NCBI RefSeq assembly: GCF_000010165.1
Contig: NC_012491.1
Coordinates: forward strand, 4,969,001 to 5,033,000
Reading direction: 5' to 3'
Source of the DNA: Brevibacillus brevis NBRC 100599
GTDB taxonomy: Bacteria > Bacillota > Bacilli > Brevibacillales > Brevibacillaceae
DNA: 64,000 bases
Shown here: piece by piece, positions 5,622-21,220 of the stretch
How positions within the stretch are numbered: position 1 is the first letter of the stretch
How the letters are laid out: each line of letters begins with the position of its first letter
Position numbers and translations under genes: made by a program
Notes under the pieces: generated by a model
What the model was told of the DNA's origin: nothing
Databases searched by the model: none
What the model saw: the letters and a program-made list of their open reading frames with translations, nothing else

Positions 5622-6578
5622 TTAATCATAATGAACCCATTTCTTTTGCAGCTTGAATTGGATGAGCGTAATGGCAAGCAGGATAAGGAACAGCACCCAC
5701 GCGATAGCAGAGGCGTAGCCCATTTTGAAAAAGCTGAATGCTTGACGGAACATGAATAGCATTAGGACGAGACTGGCGTTATTCGCTCCACCTGTCGAGC
5801 CTGCCTCTGTAGAGCCACCCGTCATGACAAAAATCTGCTCGAAGTTTTGGAAGGAGTAAATCGTGTTCAAGATGATGACCAGAAAGGTCGTGCCGGAAAT
5901 CATCGGGACTGTCACCCGCCAAAACTTTTGCCAAGCGTTCGCTCCATCAATCGAGGCTGCCTCGTACATGTCAGAAGAAATTCCTTGCAGCCCAGCCAGA
6001 AAAATAATCATCATGTAACCGACCGATTTCCAGATGGCGATGAGAACCAAGACCGGGATGACCCAGAATTCATCAATCAGCCAGTTTTGCGGGGCGATGC
6101 CCAGTTTGGTTAGAAAAGCATTGGCAAAACCGATCCGCTGGTTAAATACCGCATCCGCTACATACGCGATCACTGTCCATGAGGAGATCACCGGCAAAAA
6201 GTGAACCATCCTGAAAAATTTCAGGCCCTTCAGCTTTTGATTCAGGGCTACCGCTAATAGCAACGCCAAAAACGTTTTGGCCGGAACGTACAGGATTGTA
6301 AAATAGACCGTATTCCATAACGAGCGATAAAACAGCGGGTCTTCAAACAGCTTTGCGTAGTTGTCCAAGCCCGTCCATTTGGGCGGATTTAAAATATCGT
6401 AATCCGAAAAGCTAAAGTACAATGACGCGACCGATGTTCCCACGACGAATACGAGAAAGTGGATGAGATAAGGGGAGACCAGGAGCAATCCCCATCTCCC
6501 CTCGCTATCCAACCATTTTCTCTTGTTCACAGCAGGCTTCGCCTGTTGCTTGGTTTGCAGCTCTAGCATGGTTGGCAC
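5622..6578 (-). CDS. Sugar ABC transporter permease, MalF/UgpA family
   Basis: This is the first permease of the importer, 318 residues with six predicted helices and an extended N-terminus. Its EAA loop is MYEAASIDGANAWQKFWRVTVP. It lies 20 bp after the binding-protein gene. The start is uncertain: a GTG at 6578 overlaps the best ribosome site, and an ATG three codons later is also possible. Confidence 0.93.
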   Translation of the reverse strand: MPTMLELQTKQQAKPAVNKRKWLDSEGRWGLLLVSPYLIHFLVFVVGTSVASLYFSFSDYDILNPPKWTGLDNYAKLFEDPLFYRSLWNTVYFTILYVPAKTFLALLLAVALNQKLKGLKFFRMVHFLPVISSWTVIAYVADAVFNQRIGFANAFLTKLGIAPQNWLIDEFWVIPVLVLIAIWKSVGYMMIIFLAGLQGISSDMYEAASIDGANAWQKFWRVTVPMISGTTFLVIILNTIYSFQNFEQIFVMTGGSTEAGSTGGANNASLVLMLFMFRQAFSFFKMGYASAIAWVLFLILLAITLIQFKLQKKWVHYD

Positions 6579-6598
6579 ACATCCTCACTGATAGATGA

Positions 6599-7930
6599 CT
6601 ACTGCTTCTTGAAGAAATCATCCAGAACTTTTTGAATGCCTTGGTCTGTTTTCGTAATGAAGTCGTCCGTTCCGTATTTATCCATGAACAGCTCCGCCAG
6701 ATTATCCGTGAACACCTTCACCCACTCGGTAAAGACAGCGTTGGTATCAATCGTGCCTGCGAACTCCAAGGTATCGAGGAACACTTTTTTGTTTTCCGGC
6801 TTCGTGGCTGGGTTTAGGAACATTTCGGAATTCGCCACTGATTTTTTCACTGGAATAGCTTCGCCTACTTCTGTCCACTCTTTTTGCGCTTCATCAGATG
6901 TCGTCCAGTAGGTGATCCATTCTTTAGCGGCCTTGACCTTCTCTTCCTCTGCTTTTTTGTTGATGACCCATGAGTTGGCGATGACGGGTGCGAAGCGTTT
7001 GCCGTCCGGCCCTTTTGGCATAGGAGCGACATCGTAATTCAACCCTGCACCATTCATCGAGGTTGTTGCTGCGTAAATATCGATTTGCATCGCTACAGCC
7101 CCGCTCAAAAACGCTTTGAAGTTGCTTTGGAACGCCTTTAGATCAGCCGGATTCGGGAAGAGCTTGCGCTGCATGCCGTCGACCATCCACTCGACCGCTT
7201 TTTTGTTCTCCGGGCTGTTGATAATCGATTTTTTCAACGTCGGGTCCAATACCCCACCACCATACGCTTTCAAGATGTTAAACGCCCCGCGTGAGCTACC
7301 GAAAAACGCGAAGCCGTACTGCTTCACTGATTTTTTGTCAAAAGCAGGATCGTCTGCATTTTTCCCGTTGGCATCGAGGGTCAGCTTGACGGAAGCCGCC
7401 TTTAAATCATCCCAGGTCCAGTCAGCCGTAGGGTATGGCACGCCCGCTTTGTCGAACAAATCCTTGTTGTAGAAAAGCGCTCCGACTTGGATGCCCTGCG
7501 GCACACCCCAATACTTCCCGTCAGAGTCTTTGTTGAACTCCAGACCGTTGAGCTCCTCTTTGCTGATTTCTTTCGTGACGTAGTCGGTGATGTCGAGAAT
7601 CGCGCCACGTTGGGCGTAGCCAAATACTTTTGTCCCGTCGCTCTGCCAAAGATCAGGTGCATTCCCAGCCGCGATCTGAGTCGTCAGCTTTTGATAGAAG
7701 TCATCATAAGGTGCTGTCATTGTTTTGATTTTGATGTTCGGATGTGACTGTTCGAATTTTGCGATAATTTCTTCCATCTTTTTCTTCGTGGGCGGATCAG
7801 AGTTGTAGCCCATATACAACTCAACTTTGTCCCCCTGCTGTGTGGAGGACTGGCTGCTACATCCGGAAATAAGCAATGCCGCGGTTAAGCCAATCAAACC
7901 AAGTACTGAGAGAAACCTTCTCTTTTTCAT
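6599..7930 (-). CDS. Solute-binding lipoprotein of a carbohydrate ABC importer
   Basis: This family 1 extracellular binding protein has 443 residues. A lipoprotein signal ends in LLISGC, so it should be anchored on the outer face of the membrane. The body has the type 1 pattern (VELYMGYNSDPPTKKK, KIKTMTAPYDDFYQKL, WGVPQG, WVINKKA). The ATG at 7930 follows GGGGAGGTTTTCC. It is the first gene of an operon with two permeases, GNAT, nagZ and murQ, so the ligand is likely GlcNAc-MurNAc, MurNAc or a related peptidoglycan sugar. That ligand is inferred, not seen. Confidence 0.93.
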   Translation of the reverse strand: MKKRRFLSVLGLIGLTAALLISGCSSQSSTQQGDKVELYMGYNSDPPTKKKMEEIIAKFEQSHPNIKIKTMTAPYDDFYQKLTTQIAAGNAPDLWQSDGTKVFGYAQRGAILDITDYVTKEISKEELNGLEFNKDSDGKYWGVPQGIQVGALFYNKDLFDKAGVPYPTADWTWDDLKAASVKLTLDANGKNADDPAFDKKSVKQYGFAFFGSSRGAFNILKAYGGGVLDPTLKKSIINSPENKKAVEWMVDGMQRKLFPNPADLKAFQSNFKAFLSGAVAMQIDIYAATTSMNGAGLNYDVAPMPKGPDGKRFAPVIANSWVINKKAEEEKVKAAKEWITYWTTSDEAQKEWTEVGEAIPVKKSVANSEMFLNPATKPENKKVFLDTLEFAGTIDTNAVFTEWVKVFTDNLAELFMDKYGTDDFITKTDQGIQKVLDDFFKKQ

Positions 7931-10929: not shown

Positions 10930-11331
10930 TTATGAGAGAATCATTTTGATGAACTGAAGAATAAGAGGAACCCCTTGTACAGGAATGTCACTCAGAATCA
11001 CAACTCCCGGCTGGACCACATACAAATTGGAAGGTTGTAGCATTCCATTGATGAATAGATTCATAACCGAAACTTCATTCGGATCCAGAATCCCGGAAGT
11101 ACTGAATGGCATGACAGCATCACTGTTGGTATACACATTTTTGACTCCATCTGATATTGCTGTATACTGATAGGTTTCTGTTCGTATGATACCAGGCGTA
11201 CATGGACACGGGGGACAGGGAGGACATGTGGGGGAGGGCTTTACTGGAAAAATCCCGGGACAACCTAATGGCTGGACGATTTGCAGACACTGTCTCCTCA
11301 CGGTGTATGACTGTGTGACATAGCGCCTCAT
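10930..11331 (-). CDS. DUF4183 protein with a Pro-Cys linker, probable spore surface
   Basis: The protein has 133 residues. The N-terminus is basic; residues about 33-44 form a Cys-Pro run (TCPPCPPCPCTPG). The C-terminal 85 residues match DUF4183 (VSVMNLFINGMLQPSNLYVV...ILQFIKMI). Family members occur on exosporium or spore surfaces of Bacillales; this is family knowledge, not proof. It is paired with a second DUF4183 gene upstream. Confidence 0.72.
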   Translation of the reverse strand: MRRYVTQSYTVRRQCLQIVQPLGCPGIFPVKPSPTCPPCPPCPCTPGIIRTETYQYTAISDGVKNVYTNSDAVMPFSTSGILDPNEVSVMNLFINGMLQPSNLYVVQPGVVILSDIPVQGVPLILQFIKMILS

Positions 11332-11437: not shown

Positions 11438-11731
11438 TTAGTTAACGACAAACTCTACAACTATGGGTGTACCACCGTTTTCGGCATCTCCACCTGGAAT
11501 CGTGATCGCTGTTGTTGTGATTGTGGAAGTATTACCTGCCTGAAGCACACCGTTGACGTAGAGATTGTAAAAAGCAAACGTACCAGGAAATGCTGTGGCA
11601 GCAGCGCCCGCGTCAGTGGTAAATGCAGTTGCCGCAATGGCAAACGCAGCACCAGTACCGGTTCCAGCACCCATGGTGGACGTAAATCTCAATGAGGTTA
11701 GATAAGGTTTAACAATCGGCACTTTGAACAC
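11438..11731 (-). CDS. DUF4183 protein, short form
   Basis: The 97-residue protein is rich in Ala, Thr and Gly (TGAAFAIAATAFTTDAGAAATAFPG) and ends in the DUF4183 signature FYNLYVNGVLQAG...IVVEFVVN. No signal peptide is present, as for many spore-coat or exosporium proteins. GGAGGAGG lies upstream of the ATG. It is adjacent to the longer DUF4183 gene, 106 bp apart. Confidence 0.7.
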   Translation of the reverse strand: MFKVPIVKPYLTSLRFTSTMGAGTGTGAAFAIAATAFTTDAGAAATAFPGTFAFYNLYVNGVLQAGNTSTITTTAITIPGGDAENGGTPIVVEFVVN

Positions 11732-11840: not shown

Positions 11841-11878
11841 ACGAAATCACCCTCCCACTTTTACCAGTAGGAGGGCTA
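11841..11878 (-). terminator. Terminator of the nitrate-reductase-like operon
   Basis: A hairpin (CCCTCC with GGAGGG plus extra inner pairs) lies nine bases past the hemerythrin stop. The T-tract behind it on the minus strand is broken. Confidence 0.6.
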
Positions 11879-11886
11879 CATGATTT

Positions 11887-12429
11887 CTAAGCTTGAAACA
11901 GTACTCGCAACTGCTCTTTCTCTGCGTCACTCAATACGTATTCTGCCATCGGGAAGAGGACACTCTCTTCTTTAAAGAAATGTTCCATGAGGATTTCTAT
12001 TGACTTCAGCAAATGAGTGTGGACCGCTTCTATTTCAACTGGTTCAGACTTTTCCTTTTCTACGATTCGCATGAACGACATCAGGCTTTCATGAATAAGA
12101 TCATGCTCTTCCTCCATGACAGCAATCGGTCCCATCTCCCGTTCGATATAGTTAGCCATCAGGGGATACAGGTCTTCCTCCTCGCGTCTGGAGTGTTTCT
12201 CCAGTTCCGCCCGAAACGAGGACGCCAGCTCATGGAGCTCTGTTAAGCCTTTTTTTCGTTTCGTAGGTTCGGCAGTAGCTTTCAGGTTATTTGCCAGATG
12301 TACGAGCTCATTCATCTGCTCAGCTAATGCTAGGTGCTCGTCTTTCAGTTTTTCCAGGGCTGGACACAGCTTCCTTCTCCCTTCAAACTCCTGCATCATC
12401 CCCATACATCCTATAGGCGGTGGTCCCAT
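11887..12429 (-). CDS. Hemerythrin-domain protein
   Basis: The 180-residue, four-helix protein is expected to bind a di-iron centre. The His/Glu pattern is LKDEHLAL, HSRREEEDLYPLM, EEEHDLIHESL and EHFFKEESVLFPM. Related cytoplasmic proteins sense or scavenge O2 or NO or repair Fe-S clusters (RIC/YtfE-like). Here it is the last gene of the molybdenum-reductase operon, 27 bp behind the previous gene, which suggests a protective role against nitric oxide. That role is inferred. GGAGGGATTGTA precedes the ATG. Confidence 0.85.
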   Translation of the reverse strand: MGPPPIGCMGMMQEFEGRRKLCPALEKLKDEHLALAEQMNELVHLANNLKATAEPTKRKKGLTELHELASSFRAELEKHSRREEEDLYPLMANYIEREMGPIAVMEEEHDLIHESLMSFMRIVEKEKSEPVEIEAVHTHLLKSIEILMEHFFKEESVLFPMAEYVLSDAEKEQLRVLFQA

Positions 12430-12456
12430 TACAATCCCTCCATCTACTAGTGGGAG

Positions 12457-12774
12457 TTAGTTACCAAAAGAAATGCGATACGCTAGCTGTCCCCGATTGT
12501 CCCTAGCAACCATGCGAATACAGTCATCCTCTTGCGAAAAAACAACCGGTCCATTCTGGATGGGAATCGCAACAAACTGGCAAGGATTAAAATAGAGTCG
12601 CAGATGCTCCTCATCCTCCGTGATCTCCCATTTTGCCAGCTGCCTTTCCAAGAGAGCCGGACTGTGTGGTTCGGCATTATCCGCCAAATCTTGAATGAGT
12701 ATCCCCATTTTTTTATCCACCAAGGCAGGCAGCTCCTGGTGAAGCTCGGCAATCGTTTGCTTACTAGGATTCAT
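12457..12774 (-). CDS. Small protein of the reductase operon, unknown
   Basis: The 105-residue soluble protein starts with a helical, acidic part (HQELPALVDKKMGILIQDLAD) and ends in beta-rich sequence. I recognise no family. AAAGGAGTG lies upstream. Its tight position suggests an accessory role such as assembly of the reductase. Confidence 0.65.
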   Translation of the reverse strand: MNPSKQTIAELHQELPALVDKKMGILIQDLADNAEPHSPALLERQLAKWEITEDEEHLRLYFNPCQFVAIPIQNGPVVFSQEDDCIRMVARDNRGQLAYRISFGN

Positions 12775-12801
12775 GGCAACTGATCACACTCCTTTCCCAG
12801 A

Positions 12802-13005
12802 TTATTTCCCTTGCTCTCTTCGATCTCGCTGGTCTTTTCTCAATACCATCCATGCCAGTGGGAACAACACTACCGTTGCACCGCTGAGCAAGAGTACCTC
12901 CATATATCGCTGTGCAAGATACATGTTGACTGTGTACTGCGTGCAAACAATGCTGGCGAACAAGATCAATGCTAATAGGATGACACCTCTATAGCTGCTC
13001 TTCAT
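12802..13005 (-). CDS. Two-helix membrane protein of the reductase operon
   Basis: The 67-residue protein has two predicted membrane helices (ILLALILFASIVC and EVLLLSGATVVLFPLAWMVL) and a charged C-terminus. It overlaps the end of the Rieske gene by 17 bp, so the two are probably translationally coupled. It could be a small anchor subunit. No family recognised. Confidence 0.68.
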   Translation of the reverse strand: MKSSYRGVILLALILFASIVCTQYTVNMYLAQRYMEVLLLSGATVVLFPLAWMVLRKDQRDRREQGK

Positions 13006-13522
13006 ATTTCTTCACCCCTACAGCGTATACGGCTCCATCTTTCTCTTGAAGCACAATTTCCGGAAGTGGTCTTCTTGGGGGACCAGCGAGCGGATTACCT
13101 GTGGCAATATCAAATTTCCCGTGATGGCAAGGACATAGCAGCTCTTTCTCATCCCGGTCCCAAAATACCGGACAACGTAGGTGGGTACATGCATTTTGAT
13201 ACGCCTTGTATTCCTTTTCCTTCACATAAACGAACAACGCGCTGTCATGCTCTCCTGGATAAGCAAACTCAATCGCATCTCCGGGCTTTATATCGCTGAG
13301 ATTCGCGATTTTTTGTGTGGGATACGACTTGCTGGATGAACTCATCAGCTCCTTGGCAGCTAATGCTCCCCATGGCAGCGTAGATGCCGCGAAAAGACCG
13401 GCCGCTCCTACCATTGTTTTCATAAAACTCCGTCGATCCAGACTACGCTCATTGGAACGATTGATGTTATGCGTGTAATTGTCATCCTTCAACGGAATGG
13501 GGCGGGTTTTCTCGTTCTCCAT
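12989..13522 (-). CDS. Tat-exported Rieske 2Fe-2S protein
   Basis: The 177-residue protein has a Tat signal (RRSFMKTMVGAAGLFAASTLPWGALA) near residues 27-55. The [2Fe-2S] motif is complete: CTHLRC (CxH) and CPCHHGKFD (CxxH), 16 residues apart. It should sit outside the membrane, anchored by the uncleaved signal. It lies 16 bp after the four-cluster ferredoxin gene. It may pass electrons between quinol and the complex, as Rieske subunits do in haloarchaeal nitrate reductases; this is an inference. Confidence 0.9.
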   Translation of the reverse strand: MENEKTRPIPLKDDNYTHNINRSNERSLDRRSFMKTMVGAAGLFAASTLPWGALAAKELMSSSSKSYPTQKIANLSDIKPGDAIEFAYPGEHDSALFVYVKEKEYKAYQNACTHLRCPVFWDRDEKELLCPCHHGKFDIATGNPLAGPPRRPLPEIVLQEKDGAVYAVGVKKYEEQL

Positions 13523-13538
13523 AAGGTATATCTCCCCT

Positions 13539-14108
13539 CTAGAATAGCTTCTGTTTGCCCTGCAGAATGCCAGGCAGGCTAATTTTCACATTGGTTTCGC
13601 CTTCCAGCACATCCGGGTCGTGGCTGGCAGTCCATTTGCCATTGGCCAAAGGAATCTGTGCCCGTTTTTCTTCCAGCTCTGCTTCCTCAATCCACTGCAA
13701 GGTGTTTGTCGGGCAAACCGAAGCGCACATCGGCGGGATTCCCTCTTTCGTACGGTCGTAGCATAGATCGCACTTGTACATGAGATTCTGCTCTTCATCA
13801 AATTTAGGAATCCCATAGGGGCAGGCAATCGTACAATTTTGGCAACCGATGCATTTCTCTACCAAAGCTGACAATACGGCCCCATTATCTGCGATTTGAA
13901 TCGCCTGAGCAGGACAGCTGCGGGCGCAAGCAGGATTGACACAATGAAAGCACATGAGGGGAATCGTTTGTCTGCTGATAAACGGGTCGACATCCAGTAC
14001 GTAGTTTCGGTTTCGGCTGTCGTGACCTCCACACTGTGTACACGCCGCCAAGCAGCTTCGACAACCTATGCAATTATCCATTTCGATGTATAAGACTTGT
14101 TTACCCAT
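13539..14108 (-). CDS. Four-cluster [4Fe-4S] ferredoxin subunit (NrfC/DmsB type)
   Basis: This 189-residue electron-transfer subunit has four Cys clusters: CIGCRSCLAAC, CFHCVNPACARSC, CIGCQNCTIAC and CDLCYDRTKEGIPPMCASVC. Such proteins link a molybdopterin catalytic subunit to a membrane subunit. There is no export signal, so it is cytoplasmic. The ATG at 14108 overlaps the catalytic-subunit stop by eight bases (ATGGGTAA) and follows GGAGGAG, which indicates coupled translation. Confidence 0.92.
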   Translation of the reverse strand: MGKQVLYIEMDNCIGCRSCLAACTQCGGHDSRNRNYVLDVDPFISRQTIPLMCFHCVNPACARSCPAQAIQIADNGAVLSALVEKCIGCQNCTIACPYGIPKFDEEQNLMYKCDLCYDRTKEGIPPMCASVCPTNTLQWIEEAELEEKRAQIPLANGKWTASHDPDVLEGETNVKISLPGILQGKQKLF

Positions 14109-16275
14109 GGCGAACTCCTCCATGTTTGTGCTTGATGATTTTCGCGGCGCACGCTTTAAACTCTGGCATTTTGCTATATGGGTCCAATGCCGGGTTGGTC
14201 AGCAGATTGATAGACTGCGCTTTTCCCCAATGGTACGGAACAAACACCGTATCCTCCCGAATCGCCTCGATCACTTTCACGCGGTACTGCGCCTCTCCTC
14301 TTCTCGTTTTCAGAGTGACCAGCTCATCGTGTTCAATACCGTAACGTGTCGCTGTTTTTGGGTGAACCTCAAGCAGCGGATCAGGATACATGTCCTTCAA
14401 AAACGGGATTCGTCTTGTCTGGTTCCCGGACAAATAGTGGAACACAACTCGTCCCGTCGTTAACCGCAAAGGATATTCTTCATCCGGCTCCTCCGCTGGC
14501 GGACGGTAAGGCAGCGCACATATTTTGGCTTTGCCATCCGGGTGATAAAATTTTTTATCGAGGAATAAATGTGGCTGTCCCTCATCGCCTTCCTCGCGGC
14601 ACGGCCAGAAAACACCGTTGTTTTGATCAATTTTCTCGTAGGTGACGCCGTAGTAGTCAGCTACTCCGCCTTTGGAGACCTGACGTATTTCATTGAAAAT
14701 ATCCTGAGGAGACTTCAAGTAAGTAAAGAATTTTCCGCGCCCCATTCTTTTGGCGATTTCGATCTGAATCCACCAGTCAGGCTTGGATTCGGCAAACCAT
14801 TCCTGTGCCTGACGGTGACGAATGATGCGCCCTTCGAGATTGGTTGTCGTTCCATCGTCCTCTGCCCAAGTCGTAACGGGAAGAACGACATCAGCGTATT
14901 CAGCTGATTCGGACAAGTAAAAGTCGCAGCAAACCATAAAATCCAGACTTTTCAGGGACTCTCGAACATGGTTTAGATTTGGCGCACTTACCACAGGATT
15001 GGAGCAGAGTAAGTATAAGCTGCGAATCGTTTTATCCTTCATGAGCTGGAACATCTCATAGGCAGAGACACCTTTCTGCGGCATCTCTTCCGCGGGAATG
15101 CCCCATGCACACGCTATTTCACGCACATGTTCAGGATTGTCGAGCTTGCGGTAGCCAGGCAATTGATCGGCTTTTTGCCCATGTTCCCGCCCTCCTTGAC
15201 CGTTTCCTTGACCAGTAAGGGTTGCTACCCCTGATTTTGGGCGGCCAATCTTGCCTGTGACGAGTGACATGTTCGTATAGGCCGATACGTTATCCGTTCC
15301 TTTCGCCTGCTGTTCCACACCACGGCAAAACATCACAATTGCATCGGGTGCCCTCCCGAAAATGTCGGCAGCCCGCACAATCTTCTCCACCGAAACTCCT
15401 GTTATTTCGCTGACATACTCCGGTGTGAAGGTAGCAACCACTTCTTTTGTTTCTTCAAAACCATTCGTATGATTTCGAATAAAGTCTTCATCTATATGTC
15501 CATTCTCGATCAGGAGATGAACGATTCCGTTTGCCAGCGCCAAATCCGTACCAGGCCGCAGATCCAAGTGGATATCAGCGCGACGTGCCAAAGGCGTTTC
15601 CCTTGGATCGGCTACGATCAGGTAGCCGCCTCGATTTTGCACTTCCCAAATACGGAACATGCTGGTTGGGTGACACTCGGCCGCGTTTGATCCGGCCAAA
15701 AACAAGCAGTCTGTTTGGTGAATGTCCGTCCAAGGAATAGTAGAACCGCGGTCAATCCCCAAGCTTCGATTCAATCCTGCCGCTGCGGAGGACATACAGA
15801 AGCGGCCATTATAGTCGATATAGCGAGTTTGCAAGGCAACCCGCGCAAACTTACCCGTGAGGTAGCATTTTTCGTTCGTCATGGAAACGCCAGAGTAAAC
15901 AGACAAGGTATCTTTGCCATAGTTGTGCTGCAACTCCTTGAACTTGGAAACGATCAAGTCAAGCGCTTCTTCCCATGACGCTTCCCGAAAGCCTTCCGCC
16001 GTGCCTTTTAATGAAGCATCTGTTCGAATCAACGGCCGCTGTATCCGATCCGGATGATTCACCTGCTGATAAGCCGTCACCCCTTTTGGGCACATCTTCC
16101 CCAGATTGACAGGAAAATCGTATCGTGGCTCCACTCCAATAATCTTGTTCGTCGTTGTATCTACACGCAGATTCATCCCGCATTGCATACCGCAGTAGCT
16201 GCAGTGCGTGCTGACCAATTTCTCATTCGGATGTATCTTGTTTTCAATTACTTTAAAAAATTTATCCTTTGGCAT
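14101..16275 (-). CDS. Molybdopterin reductase catalytic subunit, NasC/NapA type (probable nitrate reductase)
   Basis: The 724-residue protein has an N-terminal [4Fe-4S] site (CSYCGMQCGMNL then KMCPKG), the catalytic domain with a probable Mo-ligand Cys in RFCMSSAAAG, and the C-terminal dinucleotide-binding domain (GRVVFHYLSGNQTRRIPFL). The Cys in the ligand place argues for the Nas/Nap branch rather than formate dehydrogenase (often selenocysteine) or NarG (Asp). There is no Tat signal, so catalysis is in the cytoplasm. The ATG at 16275 follows GGGAGG; the gene overlaps the cytochrome gene by 14 bp. Nitrate as substrate is supported by linked narK, fnr and hcp. A sulfur oxyanion or other substrate is not excluded. 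Confidence 0.85.
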   Translation of the reverse strand: MPKDKFFKVIENKIHPNEKLVSTHCSYCGMQCGMNLRVDTTTNKIIGVEPRYDFPVNLGKMCPKGVTAYQQVNHPDRIQRPLIRTDASLKGTAEGFREASWEEALDLIVSKFKELQHNYGKDTLSVYSGVSMTNEKCYLTGKFARVALQTRYIDYNGRFCMSSAAAGLNRSLGIDRGSTIPWTDIHQTDCLFLAGSNAAECHPTSMFRIWEVQNRGGYLIVADPRETPLARRADIHLDLRPGTDLALANGIVHLLIENGHIDEDFIRNHTNGFEETKEVVATFTPEYVSEITGVSVEKIVRAADIFGRAPDAIVMFCRGVEQQAKGTDNVSAYTNMSLVTGKIGRPKSGVATLTGQGNGQGGREHGQKADQLPGYRKLDNPEHVREIACAWGIPAEEMPQKGVSAYEMFQLMKDKTIRSLYLLCSNPVVSAPNLNHVRESLKSLDFMVCCDFYLSESAEYADVVLPVTTWAEDDGTTTNLEGRIIRHRQAQEWFAESKPDWWIQIEIAKRMGRGKFFTYLKSPQDIFNEIRQVSKGGVADYYGVTYEKIDQNNGVFWPCREEGDEGQPHLFLDKKFYHPDGKAKICALPYRPPAEEPDEEYPLRLTTGRVVFHYLSGNQTRRIPFLKDMYPDPLLEVHPKTATRYGIEHDELVTLKTRRGEAQYRVKVIEAIREDTVFVPYHWGKAQSINLLTNPALDPYSKMPEFKACAAKIIKHKHGGVRHG

Positions 16276-17302
16276 GTTGATTTGCCTCCCTGGCATTGAT
16301 CTCGTGCGTAGGAACTCCTGTAAAGCGGAACATCCGGTATTTTCTGCGGCACGGCAAGCAAAGTTCAGCCAAGTGGAATCCTTCTTCCATTTGAAAAGCC
16401 ATTTCGTTTTTACCCAGCACGTTGATTACATCTGCCGACTGTTCCGCAGAAACAAACTCATTGCTGCACACTTTGCACTTTTTCATTTCCTGCTCGCCAT
16501 AGTGCTCACGATAATTGCGTGCAAACACACTCATGGGACGGAACGGTATGTGAGCCAGTTTTCCGAATGGCAGATATATCAATGTTACAATCACTGCAAA
16601 TTGATGAGTGACTGATATGACCGGGTGCCCAAAGCCCCCTAAGAACATGTTGCTTGCGGTTAACATCAAGCCTGTCACGCTGATAAACAGCAGCAGGTAT
16701 AAAGGCAAAAAGTCGTAGACAAAGGATTGTTCAGCCCGTGCCTGCATGTTCTTTAATCTGCGATACAAGGCCATGACTGCTCCACCGATGACCATAAAAG
16801 CAGTAATGTTCAACGCGTTGTAAAAGAGAAACGCAATCCAGCCATCCGCTTGTACGGTCAGAACATCCACACCCATGAACACGACCTGATAGTAGCCATT
16901 GTCCGTCATCGTGAAGTACATCCAGCCAAACACTAACGGAAAGGTGACAAACGCGGCCAAGATGCATCCCCATCCCAGCAAAATGTGCTGTGTCCAGCGG
17001 TACCATCCCCGATTCCAAATAAAGCGATAGATGGCCAGATGATCCACTGCTGTATTCGCCGTGCTTTTACGAAAGAGCAGGCGTAGCCCCTTTTTCAAAA
17101 TGACATTCGTTGGCGGGCGATCTGCCCACGCAGAAAATCGATAAAGGAAACCTCCGATAAAGACAAGGGTCCCCACCATATAGCCGTAAAGCGCCAAATC
17201 AATATGCGTGAAAAAACGTGTTCCCACGTAACTTAGGACGAACAAGCAAGCAATGATGATAAAAGCACGCTTCGCCACTTTGGAAGCAAATAGATAATTC
17301 AT
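16262..17302 (-). CDS. Membrane cytochrome b-like subunit with a C-terminal CxxC-CxxC module
   Basis: The 346-residue protein has about six membrane helices with His residues placed for heme (TQHILLGWG, HPVISVTHQF). After the helices, residues about 290-335 form a cytoplasmic tail with KCKVC and CLPC, a rubredoxin- or zinc-like four-Cys site. It probably acts as the quinol-oxidising anchor, in the role of NarI or HdrE. The ATG at 17302 follows GGGAGGGTGTTGT; an ORF to 17404 would overlap the Fnr box. It is the first gene of the operon. Confidence 0.75.
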   Translation of the reverse strand: MNYLFASKVAKRAFIIIACLFVLSYVGTRFFTHIDLALYGYMVGTLVFIGGFLYRFSAWADRPPTNVILKKGLRLLFRKSTANTAVDHLAIYRFIWNRGWYRWTQHILLGWGCILAAFVTFPLVFGWMYFTMTDNGYYQVVFMGVDVLTVQADGWIAFLFYNALNITAFMVIGGAVMALYRRLKNMQARAEQSFVYDFLPLYLLLFISVTGLMLTASNMFLGGFGHPVISVTHQFAVIVTLIYLPFGKLAHIPFRPMSVFARNYREHYGEQEMKKCKVCSNEFVSAEQSADVINVLGKNEMAFQMEEGFHLAELCLPCRRKYRMFRFTGVPTHEINAREANQHAKG

Positions 17303-17349
17303 ACAACACCCTCCCTGCTGCTGCTCATTTTTTCCTTTCGCTCGAGACC

Positions 17350-17392
17350 ATTGTAGCAACAGCTCGAAACCCAGGTTGTGATTTACCTCACA
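17350..17392 (-). promoter_or_regulatory. Fnr-dependent promoter of the reductase operon
   Basis: A perfect Fnr box TGTGATTTACCTCACA (17377-17392) lies on the minus strand 21 bp upstream of a -10 TACAAT (17350-17355). This is the class II spacing, with the box centred near -41.5. The box is also 97 bp upstream of the divergent fnr gene, whose own -10 candidate is TATAAT at 17446-17451. Confidence 0.85.
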
Positions 17393-17488: not shown

Positions 17489-18196
17489 ATGACCGGAAAT
17501 GGTACAACGTTTGTCGAGCAGATTTCTTCCGATTTTGTGAATTGCCTTGAAACGTTTTCTGTTCGGAAAAATTTCGTTCCCGGAGCCGTTCTGTTTTTGG
17601 ATGGTGAAAGAGCCGATCAGCTATTCTTAATTTCGTCGGGCCAAATCAAGCTCACAAAAAACACGAACGATGGAAAAGAATTAACACTGCAAGTATTTGG
17701 TGCAGGAGAGCTAGTTGGCGTTTCCGGGCTATTCGAACAGGAATTGACGTACACCTCCACAGGAACCATGTTGATGGAGGGTGAGGTATGGATCATCCCA
17801 CGACAAGGGTTGGAAAAAATGCTCATCAAAAACGGCCAATTTTGCGTAGACTTCCTGCGTTGGATGGGATTGATGAACAGGCGGATGCAGTCCAAATTTC
17901 GCGATTTGCTACTCAATGGCAAAATCGGCGCCTTGTATTCCACGCTAATCCGCATGAGTAACACGTACGGCAAGCCACACCCCGACGGAATCCTCATCGA
18001 CCTTTCCCTTACCAATCGCGATTTGGCACAATTCATTGGACTGACACGAGAAAGTGTCAACCGGATGCTTTCCGATCTAAAAAAACAGGATTCCATCGAT
18101 CTGCTTCCCCACGGGCATATCTTGATTAAGGACCTTGCCTATTTAAAAGAAGCGATTTATTGTGATGATTGCCCACCTGATATTTGTCAAATGTGA
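17489..18196 (+). CDS. fnr: Fnr, anaerobic Crp-family regulator
   Basis: The 235-residue protein has a cyclic-nucleotide-like domain (about 15-125), a dimer helix and a winged helix with the recognition helix IGLTRESVNRMLSDL. The C-terminus carries C225, C228 and C233 (CDDCPPDIC), spacing C-x2-C-x4-C. Asp139 lies in the dimer helix. These match the Bacillus subtilis Fnr ligands C227, C230, C235 and D141 with a constant shift of two, so an oxygen-sensitive [4Fe-4S] cluster is expected. The ATG at 17489 follows AAGGGGG. It is divergent from the reductase operon and shares its Fnr box. Confidence 0.94.
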   Translation: MTGNGTTFVEQISSDFVNCLETFSVRKNFVPGAVLFLDGERADQLFLISSGQIKLTKNTNDGKELTLQVFGAGELVGVSGLFEQELTYTSTGTMLMEGEVWIIPRQGLEKMLIKNGQFCVDFLRWMGLMNRRMQSKFRDLLLNGKIGALYSTLIRMSNTYGKPHPDGILIDLSLTNRDLAQFIGLTRESVNRMLSDLKKQDSIDLLPHGHILIKDLAYLKEAIYCDDCPPDICQM

Positions 18197-18279: not shown

Positions 18280-19779
18280 TTATCCATGTCTTTGCTCCAC
18301 TAGCTCGCTGAACATGCCAGCATAGTACTCGACTTCACCTGCATCGTCCAGAATCGCGCTAATCGTTAACCATTGGAGATACTGATCCCCATTCTTCCGA
18401 CGATTCCAGATCTCTCCTTGCCAATAGCCATTCTTCTTGATCGAGTCCCACATCTTTTGATAGAAATCGGCATTCTGCCTGCCTGATTTTAAAATATTGG
18501 GGGACTTGCCAATCACTTCATTCATCTCATAACCAGTCACTTTCGTAAAAGCGTGGTTCGCACTTTTAATGACTCCTCGCGTATCGGTAATCAGTATCGC
18601 CTCTCCCGTCTTTTCCATAATGGTGGCGGCGAGCTGCAGCTTCTCTTGGTAAAACATCCACATCACCAAGACCAAGCTCACCAGTGCAAACTGCGATAAC
18701 GCCATGAAACCGATCGCGTAATGCCCGGTCAGATTAAATAACAGCGTTAGGATCAACGGCGGGAAAAATCCTCCTAATCCCCCCATAGCAGATACGATCC
18801 CATTTACAATCCCCGCTTGTCGCGAGAAATACATCGGCACTAATTTGAACACAGCACCGTTACCGATTCCGGCACATGCCGCTACCAACAAGCACCCTAC
18901 TGTATACATCAAAATCGATGGCGAAAACGATAAGACAAGACCAGACAAGGCGAGCCCGGCAAACACAATCATCAACGCCTTGAAGGGGTTCCACTTATCT
19001 CCAAGCCAACCTCCCAATGGTCTTGCAAGTGTCGCCAAAAGAATGAACCCTGCTGTTCTCATACCTGCATCTACTTTATCCAGTTGGAAATGGCTCACTA
19101 AAAAGTTCGGGAGATACACGGTGAAAGCAACGAAGCAACCAAACGTAATAAAGTAGAACAAACTGATCAACCACAGCTTTTCGTTTTTGTAGACACTCTT
19201 TATCTGCTGACCAAGAGGAGTCACTACCTTAGGTTCATTTTTATCCCCCATCAAGAAGGTAAGCACTGCGAATCCCACAAGCAATAGCATAAACATCTGT
19301 ACAGTGGTTGCCCATCCAAACGATTTAGCCAGAACTGGCGCTGAAAACGTCGTGATCGCTGTACCAATATTCCCCATACCGTAGATTCCGTTTACAGAAC
19401 CATGCTTCTCTTTCGGATAGTATTTAGGTAGAGACGTGACACCAACGGAAAACACCGCTCCGCCTATCCCTATAAATAACCCGCCGATTAACAAATCGGT
19501 ATACGTGGTCGCCTGGCTAATATAGAAAACAGGAGCCAGCAGCAAGAGAAAGCTGATGCTAAATAATAGCCTCGCGCCAAATCGGTTACTCCAATATCCA
19601 ACTGGGATTCTCAGCAGCGATCCAAGAAGAACAGGAATCGCTGTCACCCACGCCACTTCGCTTGGACTCATGGGTACGGTTTCTTTGATAAAAGGCATGA
19701 GCGATGACAGAATGACCCATACCATGAAACCGACCGTAAGACTCAACGTCTGTAATGGCAACTGCCATTTTCGTACCAT
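18280..19779 (-). CDS. narK: NarK-type nitrate/nitrite transporter fused to a C-terminal PAS domain
   Basis: The 499-residue protein has two parts. Residues about 1-385 form a 12-helix major facilitator of the nitrate/nitrite porter group (IPVGYWSNRFGARLL; GNIGTAITTFSAPVLAKSFGW; ARPLGGWLGDKWNP). Residues about 388-499 form a PAS domain (GEAILITDTRGVIKSANHAFTKVTGYEMNEVIGKSP) with a PAC-like end (WQGEIWNRRKNGDQYLQWLTIS). Ordinary NarK proteins stop after the last helix. The PAS domain should face the cytoplasm. The ATG at 19779 follows AGGGGTG. Its promoter carries an Fnr box shared with hcp. Confidence 0.9.
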   Translation of the reverse strand: MVRKWQLPLQTLSLTVGFMVWVILSSLMPFIKETVPMSPSEVAWVTAIPVLLGSLLRIPVGYWSNRFGARLLFSISFLLLLAPVFYISQATTYTDLLIGGLFIGIGGAVFSVGVTSLPKYYPKEKHGSVNGIYGMGNIGTAITTFSAPVLAKSFGWATTVQMFMLLLVGFAVLTFLMGDKNEPKVVTPLGQQIKSVYKNEKLWLISLFYFITFGCFVAFTVYLPNFLVSHFQLDKVDAGMRTAGFILLATLARPLGGWLGDKWNPFKALMIVFAGLALSGLVLSFSPSILMYTVGCLLVAACAGIGNGAVFKLVPMYFSRQAGIVNGIVSAMGGLGGFFPPLILTLLFNLTGHYAIGFMALSQFALVSLVLVMWMFYQEKLQLAATIMEKTGEAILITDTRGVIKSANHAFTKVTGYEMNEVIGKSPNILKSGRQNADFYQKMWDSIKKNGYWQGEIWNRRKNGDQYLQWLTISAILDDAGEVEYYAGMFSELVEQRHG

Positions 19780-19820
19780 AAACAACACCCCTCACTTGGG
19801 AAATCTTCTTCATCCACTAT

Positions 19821-19888
19821 GATAAGAGGCAAAGTTTGGTTTCGTTGTGATTTTAATCACAGCTCCTTCCAAGCAATCCGCTTATAAT
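19821..19888. promoter_or_regulatory. Divergent Fnr-dependent promoters of narK and hcp
   Basis: A perfect Fnr box TGTGATTTTAATCACA occupies 19846-19861. Going right, 21 bp separate it from TATAAT (19883-19888), the -10 of hcp. Going left, TATCAT lies at a similar distance for narK. One box can thus activate both genes as a class II site. Confidence 0.85.
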
Positions 19889-19924: not shown

Positions 19925-21220
19925 ATGTTTTGTTATCAATGTGAACAGACTCCAACAGGTGGTTGTAAGGTCATCGGCGTTTGCGGAAAGAATGAAGATC
20001 TTGCGAGTATTCAGGATACCATTATTTTTGCTTTAAAAGGGATTGCAGCTTATGCGACACATGCTCGACAACTGGGATATATCGATCCTGAAGTGGACGG
20101 GATTACACAGGAAGCTCTTTATTTTACATTGACGAATGTGAATTTCAACTTGGACGAACATTTGCAAATGGCCATGAAAGTAGGGAAGGCCGCGATAAAA
20201 GTCATGGAGCTTTTGGATCGGGCTCATACGGATCATTTCGGAGTGCCGCAGCCAATCACAGTCTCGCAAAACAAAATAGAAGGAAAATGCATCGTTGTTA
20301 CGGGGCACAATCTGTTTGCTCTCGAAGAGCTGTTAAAACAGACAGAAGGCAAAGGAATCAATGTATATACGCATTCCGAAATGCTGCCTGCACATGGCTA
20401 TCCCGCACTGAAGAAATATCCTCATTTGAAAGGGAACATCGGGAAAGCATGGTACGATCAACGCCAGTTGTTTGAGAAGTTTCCCGGCGCTATCCTGGCT
20501 ACAACAAACTGTGTGATGCCTATTCGAGGCAGCTACGCCGATCGTTTCTTTTCGTATGATATAACCGGTTTGGAAAATGTAACGAAAATCGAAGAAAACG
20601 ATTTTGCGCCGCTCATTGAAAAGGCATTGTCTCTTCCTGAGGTTTCCATCGAATCGGAACTGACACTGACGACCGGGTATCATCATAAAACGGTTCTGGG
20701 CATCGCCCCTGAAATTATTCAGGCAGTCAAGGAAGGAAAGATCAAACGCTTCTTCGTCATCGCAGGTTGTGACGCTCCTGGCAAGGGAGGCGAGTATTAC
20801 CGTGAATTGGCTACGTCCTTACCACCAGAAGCAGTCATTCTTACGACCTCCTGCGGAAAATTCCGTTTTAACGATGTAGATTTCGGCACCGTGCCAGGTA
20901 CCGACATCCCAAGATATATCGATTTGGGACAGTGCAATAACTCGGTTTCTACCATTACGATTGCGGCTGCATTAGCCGATGCCTTCGAATGTGAAGTGAA
21001 CGAGCTGCCGGTAAGTATCGTTCTTTCCTGGTTTGAACAAAAAGCGGTTGCCATCCTGCTCGGTCTGTTTAGCCTAGGGATACAAGATATACGGATCGGC
21101 CCAAAATTGCCTGAGTTCATTCAGCCCGGTGTTCTGCAAGTATTACAAGACTTGTTCCATATTCAGTTGATTGGTGATGCTCAAGAAGATATGAAGCAAA
21201 TGCTCGGAATCACGCAATAA
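19925..21220 (+). CDS. hcp: Hybrid cluster protein (Hcp), short form
   Basis: Hcp reduces nitric oxide or hydroxylamine and protects cells that respire nitrate. The 431-residue protein begins with the cluster motif CYQCEQTPTGGCKVIGVC (Cys 3, 6, 14, 20). Further ligands of the hybrid cluster are seen in GHNLFALEEL, TTNCVMP, IAGCDAPG, TTSCGKFRF and DLGQCNN. The length is about 110 residues below that of E. coli Hcp, which fits the shorter class lacking a helical insert. Start at 19925 (MFCYQCEQ) is standard. It is controlled by the Fnr box upstream. The redox partner Hcr is not adjacent. Confidence 0.94.
   Translation: MFCYQCEQTPTGGCKVIGVCGKNEDLASIQDTIIFALKGIAAYATHARQLGYIDPEVDGITQEALYFTLTNVNFNLDEHLQMAMKVGKAAIKVMELLDRAHTDHFGVPQPITVSQNKIEGKCIVVTGHNLFALEELLKQTEGKGINVYTHSEMLPAHGYPALKKYPHLKGNIGKAWYDQRQLFEKFPGAILATTNCVMPIRGSYADRFFSYDITGLENVTKIEENDFAPLIEKALSLPEVSIESELTLTTGYHHKTVLGIAPEIIQAVKEGKIKRFFVIAGCDAPGKGGEYYRELATSLPPEAVILTTSCGKFRFNDVDFGTVPGTDIPRYIDLGQCNNSVSTITIAAALADAFECEVNELPVSIVLSWFEQKAVAILLGLFSLGIQDIRIGPKLPEFIQPGVLQVLQDLFHIQLIGDAQEDMKQMLGITQ

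Follow-up and report, generated by a model that had tools for sequence, protein, structure and literature searches.

What kind of enzyme is specified by seven closely packed genes of Brevibacillus brevis NBRC 100599 that set a nitrate-reductase-like molybdenum subunit beside a ferredoxin, a cytochrome b-like anchor, a Rieske protein, two small proteins and a hemerythrin, and does it serve respiration or assimilation? The genes lie in a stretch of 64,000 nucleotides (the window) of a genome that forms a single contig of 6,296,436 bp, and an earlier note on this DNA had suggested a respiratory nitrate reductase of a new type. Comparison with relatives leads us to favor, with a probability of roughly 0.78, a membrane-bound, FNR-induced, quinol-dependent dissimilatory nitrate reductase whose active site faces the cytoplasm and whose Rieske protein lies on the outer side of the membrane. 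The features concerned are these, in window coordinates:

11849–11876, minus strand: terminator-like hairpin 3' of the hemerythrin gene (11 bp stem, then a T-rich run)
11887–12429, minus strand: hemerythrin-like di-iron protein, last gene of the operon (PF01814, E 4e-18)
12457–12774, minus strand: 105-aa soluble protein (conservation, AlphaFold2)
12802–13005, minus strand: 67-aa two-helix membrane protein (iterated HMM)
12989–13522, minus strand: Tat-signal Rieske [2Fe-2S] protein (PF00355, E 2e-12)
13539–14123, minus strand: ferredoxin-like subunit with four [4Fe-4S] Cys motifs, DmsB/NrfC type (PF13247, TIGR02951)
14101–16275, minus strand: NasC-group molybdopterin catalytic subunit, 724 aa (NF047855, motifs, tree)
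16262–17302, minus strand: NarI-like cytochrome b, 346 aa (structure matches, hhalign, Pfam)
17350–17355, minus strand: −10 element TACAAT, spaced from the FNR box as in class-II promoters
17377–17392, no strand assigned: FNR box, TGTGAGGTAAATCACA on the strand of the operon (perfect match)
17489–18196, plus strand: divergent Fnr/Crp regulator with C-terminal CDDCPPDIC (family search, Cys motif)
18280–19788, minus strand: NarK-type nitrate/nitrite transporter with a C-terminal PAS domain (family searches)
19824–19819 and 19883–19888: −10 elements TATCAT and TATAAT, respectively, flanking the second FNR box
19846–19861, no strand assigned: second FNR box, between narK and hcp (perfect match)
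19925–21220, plus strand: hybrid cluster protein, Hcp (TIGR01703, 581 bits)

All seven open reading frames of the operon (11887–17302) are found in the order and with the overlaps first described, adjacent genes overlapping by at most 23 bp or sitting at most 29 bp apart. The proposed extent of 11887–17392 stands at its start; position 17392 is the end of the FNR box, the last gene coordinate being 17302. Downstream, two small open reading frames (10930–11331 and 11438–11731) look by eye like spore-surface proteins.

The catalytic subunit scores best against the NasC model NF047855, at 892.8 bits, which is below that model's curated cut-off of 1100. Its expected molybdenum ligand is Cys160, its metal-ligand motif is NGRFCMSS (Cys-Met), and its second signature, TGQGNGQGGREHG, is as in NasC; the Cys ligand and these nitrate-reductase active-site signatures agree with the Nas/Nap type assigned in the earlier note. 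Formate dehydrogenases are the closest solved structures by sequence (the best PDB sequence match), and formate dehydrogenase was considered and ruled out because of the active-site motifs and the tree position: the subunit has Cys-Met and the pattern TGQ.N..GGREHG (TGQGNGQGG), where formate dehydrogenases have Sec/Cys-His and RGQNNVQG. In a maximum-likelihood tree of 61 rows, the catalytic subunits borne by this complex, from two groups of Bacilli and from Deinococcus, form a single clade (support 97/93) that includes the window protein and has the canonical NasC clade (100/98) as its sister; the two are joined at 100/100, and NapA, NasA, an actinobacterial Nas and formate dehydrogenases fall outside. 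A phylogeny of the catalytic subunit had been proposed at the outset as a check; on motifs and tree together the protein is a NasC-group molybdenum subunit bearing nitrate-reductase signatures. No convincing export signal precedes the catalytic or ferredoxin subunits in the window operon or its relatives, which for the catalytic subunit bears out the first reading.

The cytochrome has six predicted transmembrane helices and a tail with C276xxC279 and C315xxC318, so the anchor with a CxxC-CxxC tail is present as described. Its AlphaFold model is of low confidence (pLDDT 64.6) and was used for resemblance to NarI alone: the top matches among solved structures are all NarI (Foldseek probability 0.84–0.99), and the first eight structural rows are all NarI chains (Z 9.9–10.5, rmsd 5.0–9.2). 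The match to PF02665 is weak (E 0.0064). An hhalign comparison pairs H233 and H251 with NarI H187 and H205; by motif, H106 corresponds to NarI H56, and motif comparison gave no counterpart of NarI H66 in the cytochrome. We take the heme pairs of Escherichia coli NarI to be H56–H205 and H66–H187, with H66 a ligand of the distal heme; since H66 has no counterpart here, both the quinol site and the second heme are uncertain. The three histidines, like the four cysteines of the tail, hardly vary across 51 sequences from all clades. Sequence and model comparisons thus identify the protein as a NarI-like cytochrome b; its charge distribution predicts that the long first loop and the CxxC tail are cytoplasmic, and the tail could face the ferredoxin.

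The ferredoxin subunit contains 16 cysteines in four [4Fe-4S] quartets, a pattern kept in 79 of 80 relatives. Its Rieske neighbor begins with DRRSFMK and a hydrophobic stretch, the Tat signal noticed at first inspection, and carries the bc-type boxes CTHLRC and CPCHHG; the boxes are kept in 77/78 relatives and the twin-arginine motif in 75/78. It resembles the small subunit of arsenite oxidase (TIGR02694, E 1.3e-15). By iterated HMM, the family of the 67-aa protein occurs in all 80 clade A loci and in most clade B loci, and in Deinococcus its position is taken by a DUF6755 gene. The 105-aa family is found in clade A only, in nearly all loci; its model, an N-terminal helix and a beta-barrel (AlphaFold2 pLDDT 91), lies nearest to YojF among solved folds (Z 8.1, rmsd 3.2 over 95 residues), a match that names no function, and also resembles ChuX-like folds at a Z of about 5, too weak for naming one. 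The protein is possibly an assembly factor. Hemerythrin had been counted as part of the unit; as a core subunit it was rejected on its distribution, since it occurs in the operon in only part of Brevibacillus and is absent or strongly diverged beyond a close Brevibacillus group, which makes it a lineage-specific accessory. Judged from their families, Hcp and hemerythrin probably act on nitric oxide formed as a by-product.

A genome scan with the cytochrome gave 163 relatives, of which 80 were kept, with loci from Brevibacillus, Paenibacillus, Cohnella and many Bacillaceae. Genes for the cytochrome, catalytic subunit, ferredoxin, Rieske protein and 67-aa protein lie within 9 kb of one another in 80/80 kept loci; of the seven-gene order that the earlier note proposed to look for, these five therefore recur throughout, and the hemerythrin in part of Brevibacillus only. 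At one of these loci, in Paenibacillus phyllosphaerae, the catalytic and ferredoxin genes within 9 kb belong to a second copy nearby; the other copy is apparently incomplete, with a cytochrome and a Rieske gene and no catalytic gene of its own, and adjoins nirB. A second clade of Bacilli (clade B) and Deinococcus sp. NW-56 have the same gene order, and four Deinococcus plasmids carry the same cytochrome. The conservation of gene order is far beyond chance. Genes for a molybdenum subunit, a four-[4Fe-4S] subunit and a membrane anchor occur together in 80/80 loci, the combination that defines a complex iron-sulfur molybdoenzyme. In a sample of the class, the cytochrome is present in 39/399 genomes. 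The gene set is accordingly not the rarity in Bacilli that it was taken for: it is widespread, and a 2012 paper already notes a linkage of nasC with iron-sulfur and Rieske genes in Bacillus bataviensis (PMC3475470).

Several observations point to anaerobic FNR control of the operon. The window holds only two perfect copies of the palindrome TGTGA-N6-TCACA (0.07 expected in 64 kb), one starting at 17377 in the operon promoter and one at 19846 between the divergent narK and hcp, and −10 elements lie at class-II spacing from both. Among 79 relatives, the region upstream of the cytochrome gene holds a perfect box in 30 and a one-mismatch box in 19, against 2.3 and 2.6 in random stretches, and a second scan placed a −10 element at offset 21 or 22 from the box, the spacing seen in the B. 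brevis operon, in 28 of 43 relatives with a box. No box is evident upstream in many Bacillaceae loci. The C-terminal cysteine motif of the divergent regulator, as expected of a B. subtilis-type Fnr, is kept (CDDCP..IC) in every relative with a complete C-terminus. A narK relative lies within 9 kb in 77/80 loci, with a strong match in 57.

What other enzymes of nitrate and nitrite accompany the complex was judged by family searches. At the thresholds used, these gave no match in the B. brevis genome to NarG, NapA, NapD, a second NasC-type enzyme or NrfA; they found no dedicated nitrite reductase there, the open reading frames of sulfite/nitrite-reductase type being CysI, a CobJ fusion and one short unassigned frame. 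NarG is absent from 47 of the 49 searched named genomes with the complex. Within the class sample, 2/39 complex-bearing genomes have NarG versus 113/360 others (Fisher p 3e-4, shared ancestry ignored), and the two NarG-bearing genomes of Brevibacillaceae both lack the complex, which thus apparently replaces NarG. A separate NasC above its curated cut-off occurs in 32/50 complex genomes, including most complex-bearing Paenibacillus; in these, assimilation need not fall to the complex. Of ten canonical NasC regions inspected, nine contain nirB. None lies beside the window operon, and nirB is nearby in some Paenibacillus complex loci, so that nitrite may be assimilated there.

Bacillus sp. DNRA2 converts nitrate via nitrite to ammonium under anoxia (PMC10653820). 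Its assembly holds three copies of the complex, one of them beside nrfHA, and gave no match to NarG, NapA or NapD in the same searches, in which three relatives with NapA also show NapD. The strain is a strong lead for complex-based nitrate reduction and not a proof, because the paper attributes nap to it (PMC10653820) and the searched assembly does not show nap.

Gene set, protein families, catalytic motifs, phylogeny, FNR promoter and distribution can be read in the sequence itself; for complex formation, topology, quinol donor, energy conservation and the roles of the Rieske protein and the CxxC tail, we infer the following scheme. On the outer side of the membrane, the NarI-like cytochrome b and the exported Rieske protein would jointly oxidize menaquinol. 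As the cytochrome lacks the H66 counterpart, its quinol site may be remodelled, with the Rieske protein as the first to accept electrons there. From heme b, electrons would cross to the four [4Fe-4S] clusters in the ferredoxin subunit and on to a cytoplasmic NasC-type Mo-bisMGD subunit, where nitrate imported by NarK would be reduced to nitrite, NarK exchanging the one for the other. With protons released outside and consumed inside, the system would form a redox loop like that of NarGHI. We lean, though not strongly, toward the broader view that this is a further, NasC-derived family of membrane-bound dissimilatory nitrate reductases, in which quinol electrons enter through an external Rieske protein, in place of the distal heme or in addition to it, and which supplies nitrate respiration in many Bacilli lacking Nar and Nap and also in Deinococcus.

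The same genes admit other readings. Heylen and Keltjens, in their study of B. bataviensis, read nasC linked to iron-sulfur and Rieske genes as an alternative assimilatory system (PMC3475470), and the complex could likewise be an assimilatory nitrate reductase that draws its electrons from the membrane; its nearest relatives are assimilatory NasC, and the nirB genes near some Paenibacillus loci would suit that role. We regard this as unlikely, however, given the FNR promoter, the separate NasC of most complex-bearing Paenibacillus, a B. brevis genome without a recognized assimilatory nitrite reductase, the apparent replacement of NarG, and the DNRA2 copy that adjoins nrfHA.

The AioB-like character of the Rieske protein opens two further readings. 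AioA is not known to have a signal sequence of its own. The catalytic subunit, which has none either, might be exported with its ferredoxin on the Tat-Rieske protein, as AioA is with AioB, to give a respiratory nitrate reductase with its active site outside; the linkage to narK in 77/80 loci fits an active site in the cytoplasm instead, and the predicted cytoplasmic side of the CxxC tail also speaks against this arrangement, which we consider quite improbable. A different oxyanion as substrate, or work in the oxidase direction (arsenite, selenate, chlorate), would draw on the same AioB resemblance and on published trees in which AioA branches near NasC (PMC7331816), but active-site motifs and tree group the subunit with NasC, and the neighbors are narK, hcp and nrfHA; we hold this to be very unlikely. 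The reading we prefer therefore remains that of a quinol-dependent nitrate reductase with its active site inside.

Set beside known systems, the complex would work like an enzyme of the NarGHI type, and by sequence it is a member of neither NarGHI, Nap nor canonical NasC. With NarGHI it shares a (here presumably) cytoplasmic molybdenum subunit, a four-cluster iron-sulfur subunit, a NarI-fold cytochrome b, and NarK and Fnr partners. It differs in its NasC-type catalytic subunit of 724 aa with a Cys ligand, where NarG has about 1200 aa and an Asp ligand; in the extra N-terminal helix, CxxC tail and missing H66 counterpart of the cytochrome; in the added Rieske and two small proteins; and in having no NarJ gene in the operon. 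The distinction from NarGHI drawn in the earlier note is thus upheld, as it is by the lack of NarG in the B. brevis genome, and so is that from assimilatory Nas: the catalytic subunit lies in a clade apart from nirB-linked NasC, and the operon has no nirB. Assimilatory NasC of Bacilli, a sister clade with the same motifs and a soluble catalytic subunit, adjoins nirB, and next to it lies no gene for a NarI-like anchor, a four-cluster subunit or a Rieske protein like those of the complex. Nap also has a Cys-ligated molybdenum subunit from a related family, but the operon lacks NapB, NapD, NapG and NapH, and its catalytic subunit has no signal and falls in another clade. Arsenite oxidase AioBA likewise pairs a Tat-Rieske partner with a NasC-related molybdoenzyme and differs in substrate; we know of no membrane cytochrome or four-cluster subunit in it. 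Haloarchaeal pNar likewise joins nitrate reduction to a Rieske protein and a b-type cytochrome, with an exported NarG catalytic subunit and a bc1-type cytochrome b, NarC (PMC8301774, PMC4683180), whereas here the catalytic subunit is of NasC type and the cytochrome of NarI type. The B. bataviensis cluster is probably the same operon, given in the available part of that paper as three linked genes and described there without the cytochrome, the small proteins or FNR control (PMC3475470). The open literature that we searched yielded no paper describing the complex as respiratory; within it, the suggestion of a new type holds for the architecture among respiratory nitrate reductases, the respiratory role being the probable part.

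Wells et al. state that canonical four-cluster subunits and membrane anchors do not accompany the branch of NasC, NapA and formate dehydrogenase, and that assimilation is the sole role of NasC (PMC7331816); the gene set contradicts the former at the level of sequence and makes the latter doubtful. Most likely, the complex is a means of nitrate respiration without textbook Nar or Nap, built on a subunit type thought purely assimilatory. If active, it would add to the nitrate respirers a group that is common among Paenibacillus, Brevibacillus and Bacillus of soils, and provide a case in which a Rieske protein and a NarI-type cytochrome work together. Surveys of nitrate reducers target narG and napA, and such markers would miss this group, whose genes are labelled in databases as nasC or "MFS transporter," among other names, the latter the annotation of the cytochrome of Deinococcus sp. 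NW-56 (5675–6787 of its locus, L174).

Two minor observations concern the neighborhood. Three clade B operons (L133, L134 and L137) adjoin, by eye, a gene for an Mrp/NBP35-like ATPase, possibly a cluster-assembly factor. The PAS tail of the NarK encoded at 18280–19788 is retained in 54/58 strong narK relatives near the complex, a fusion that suggests a transporter-sensor.
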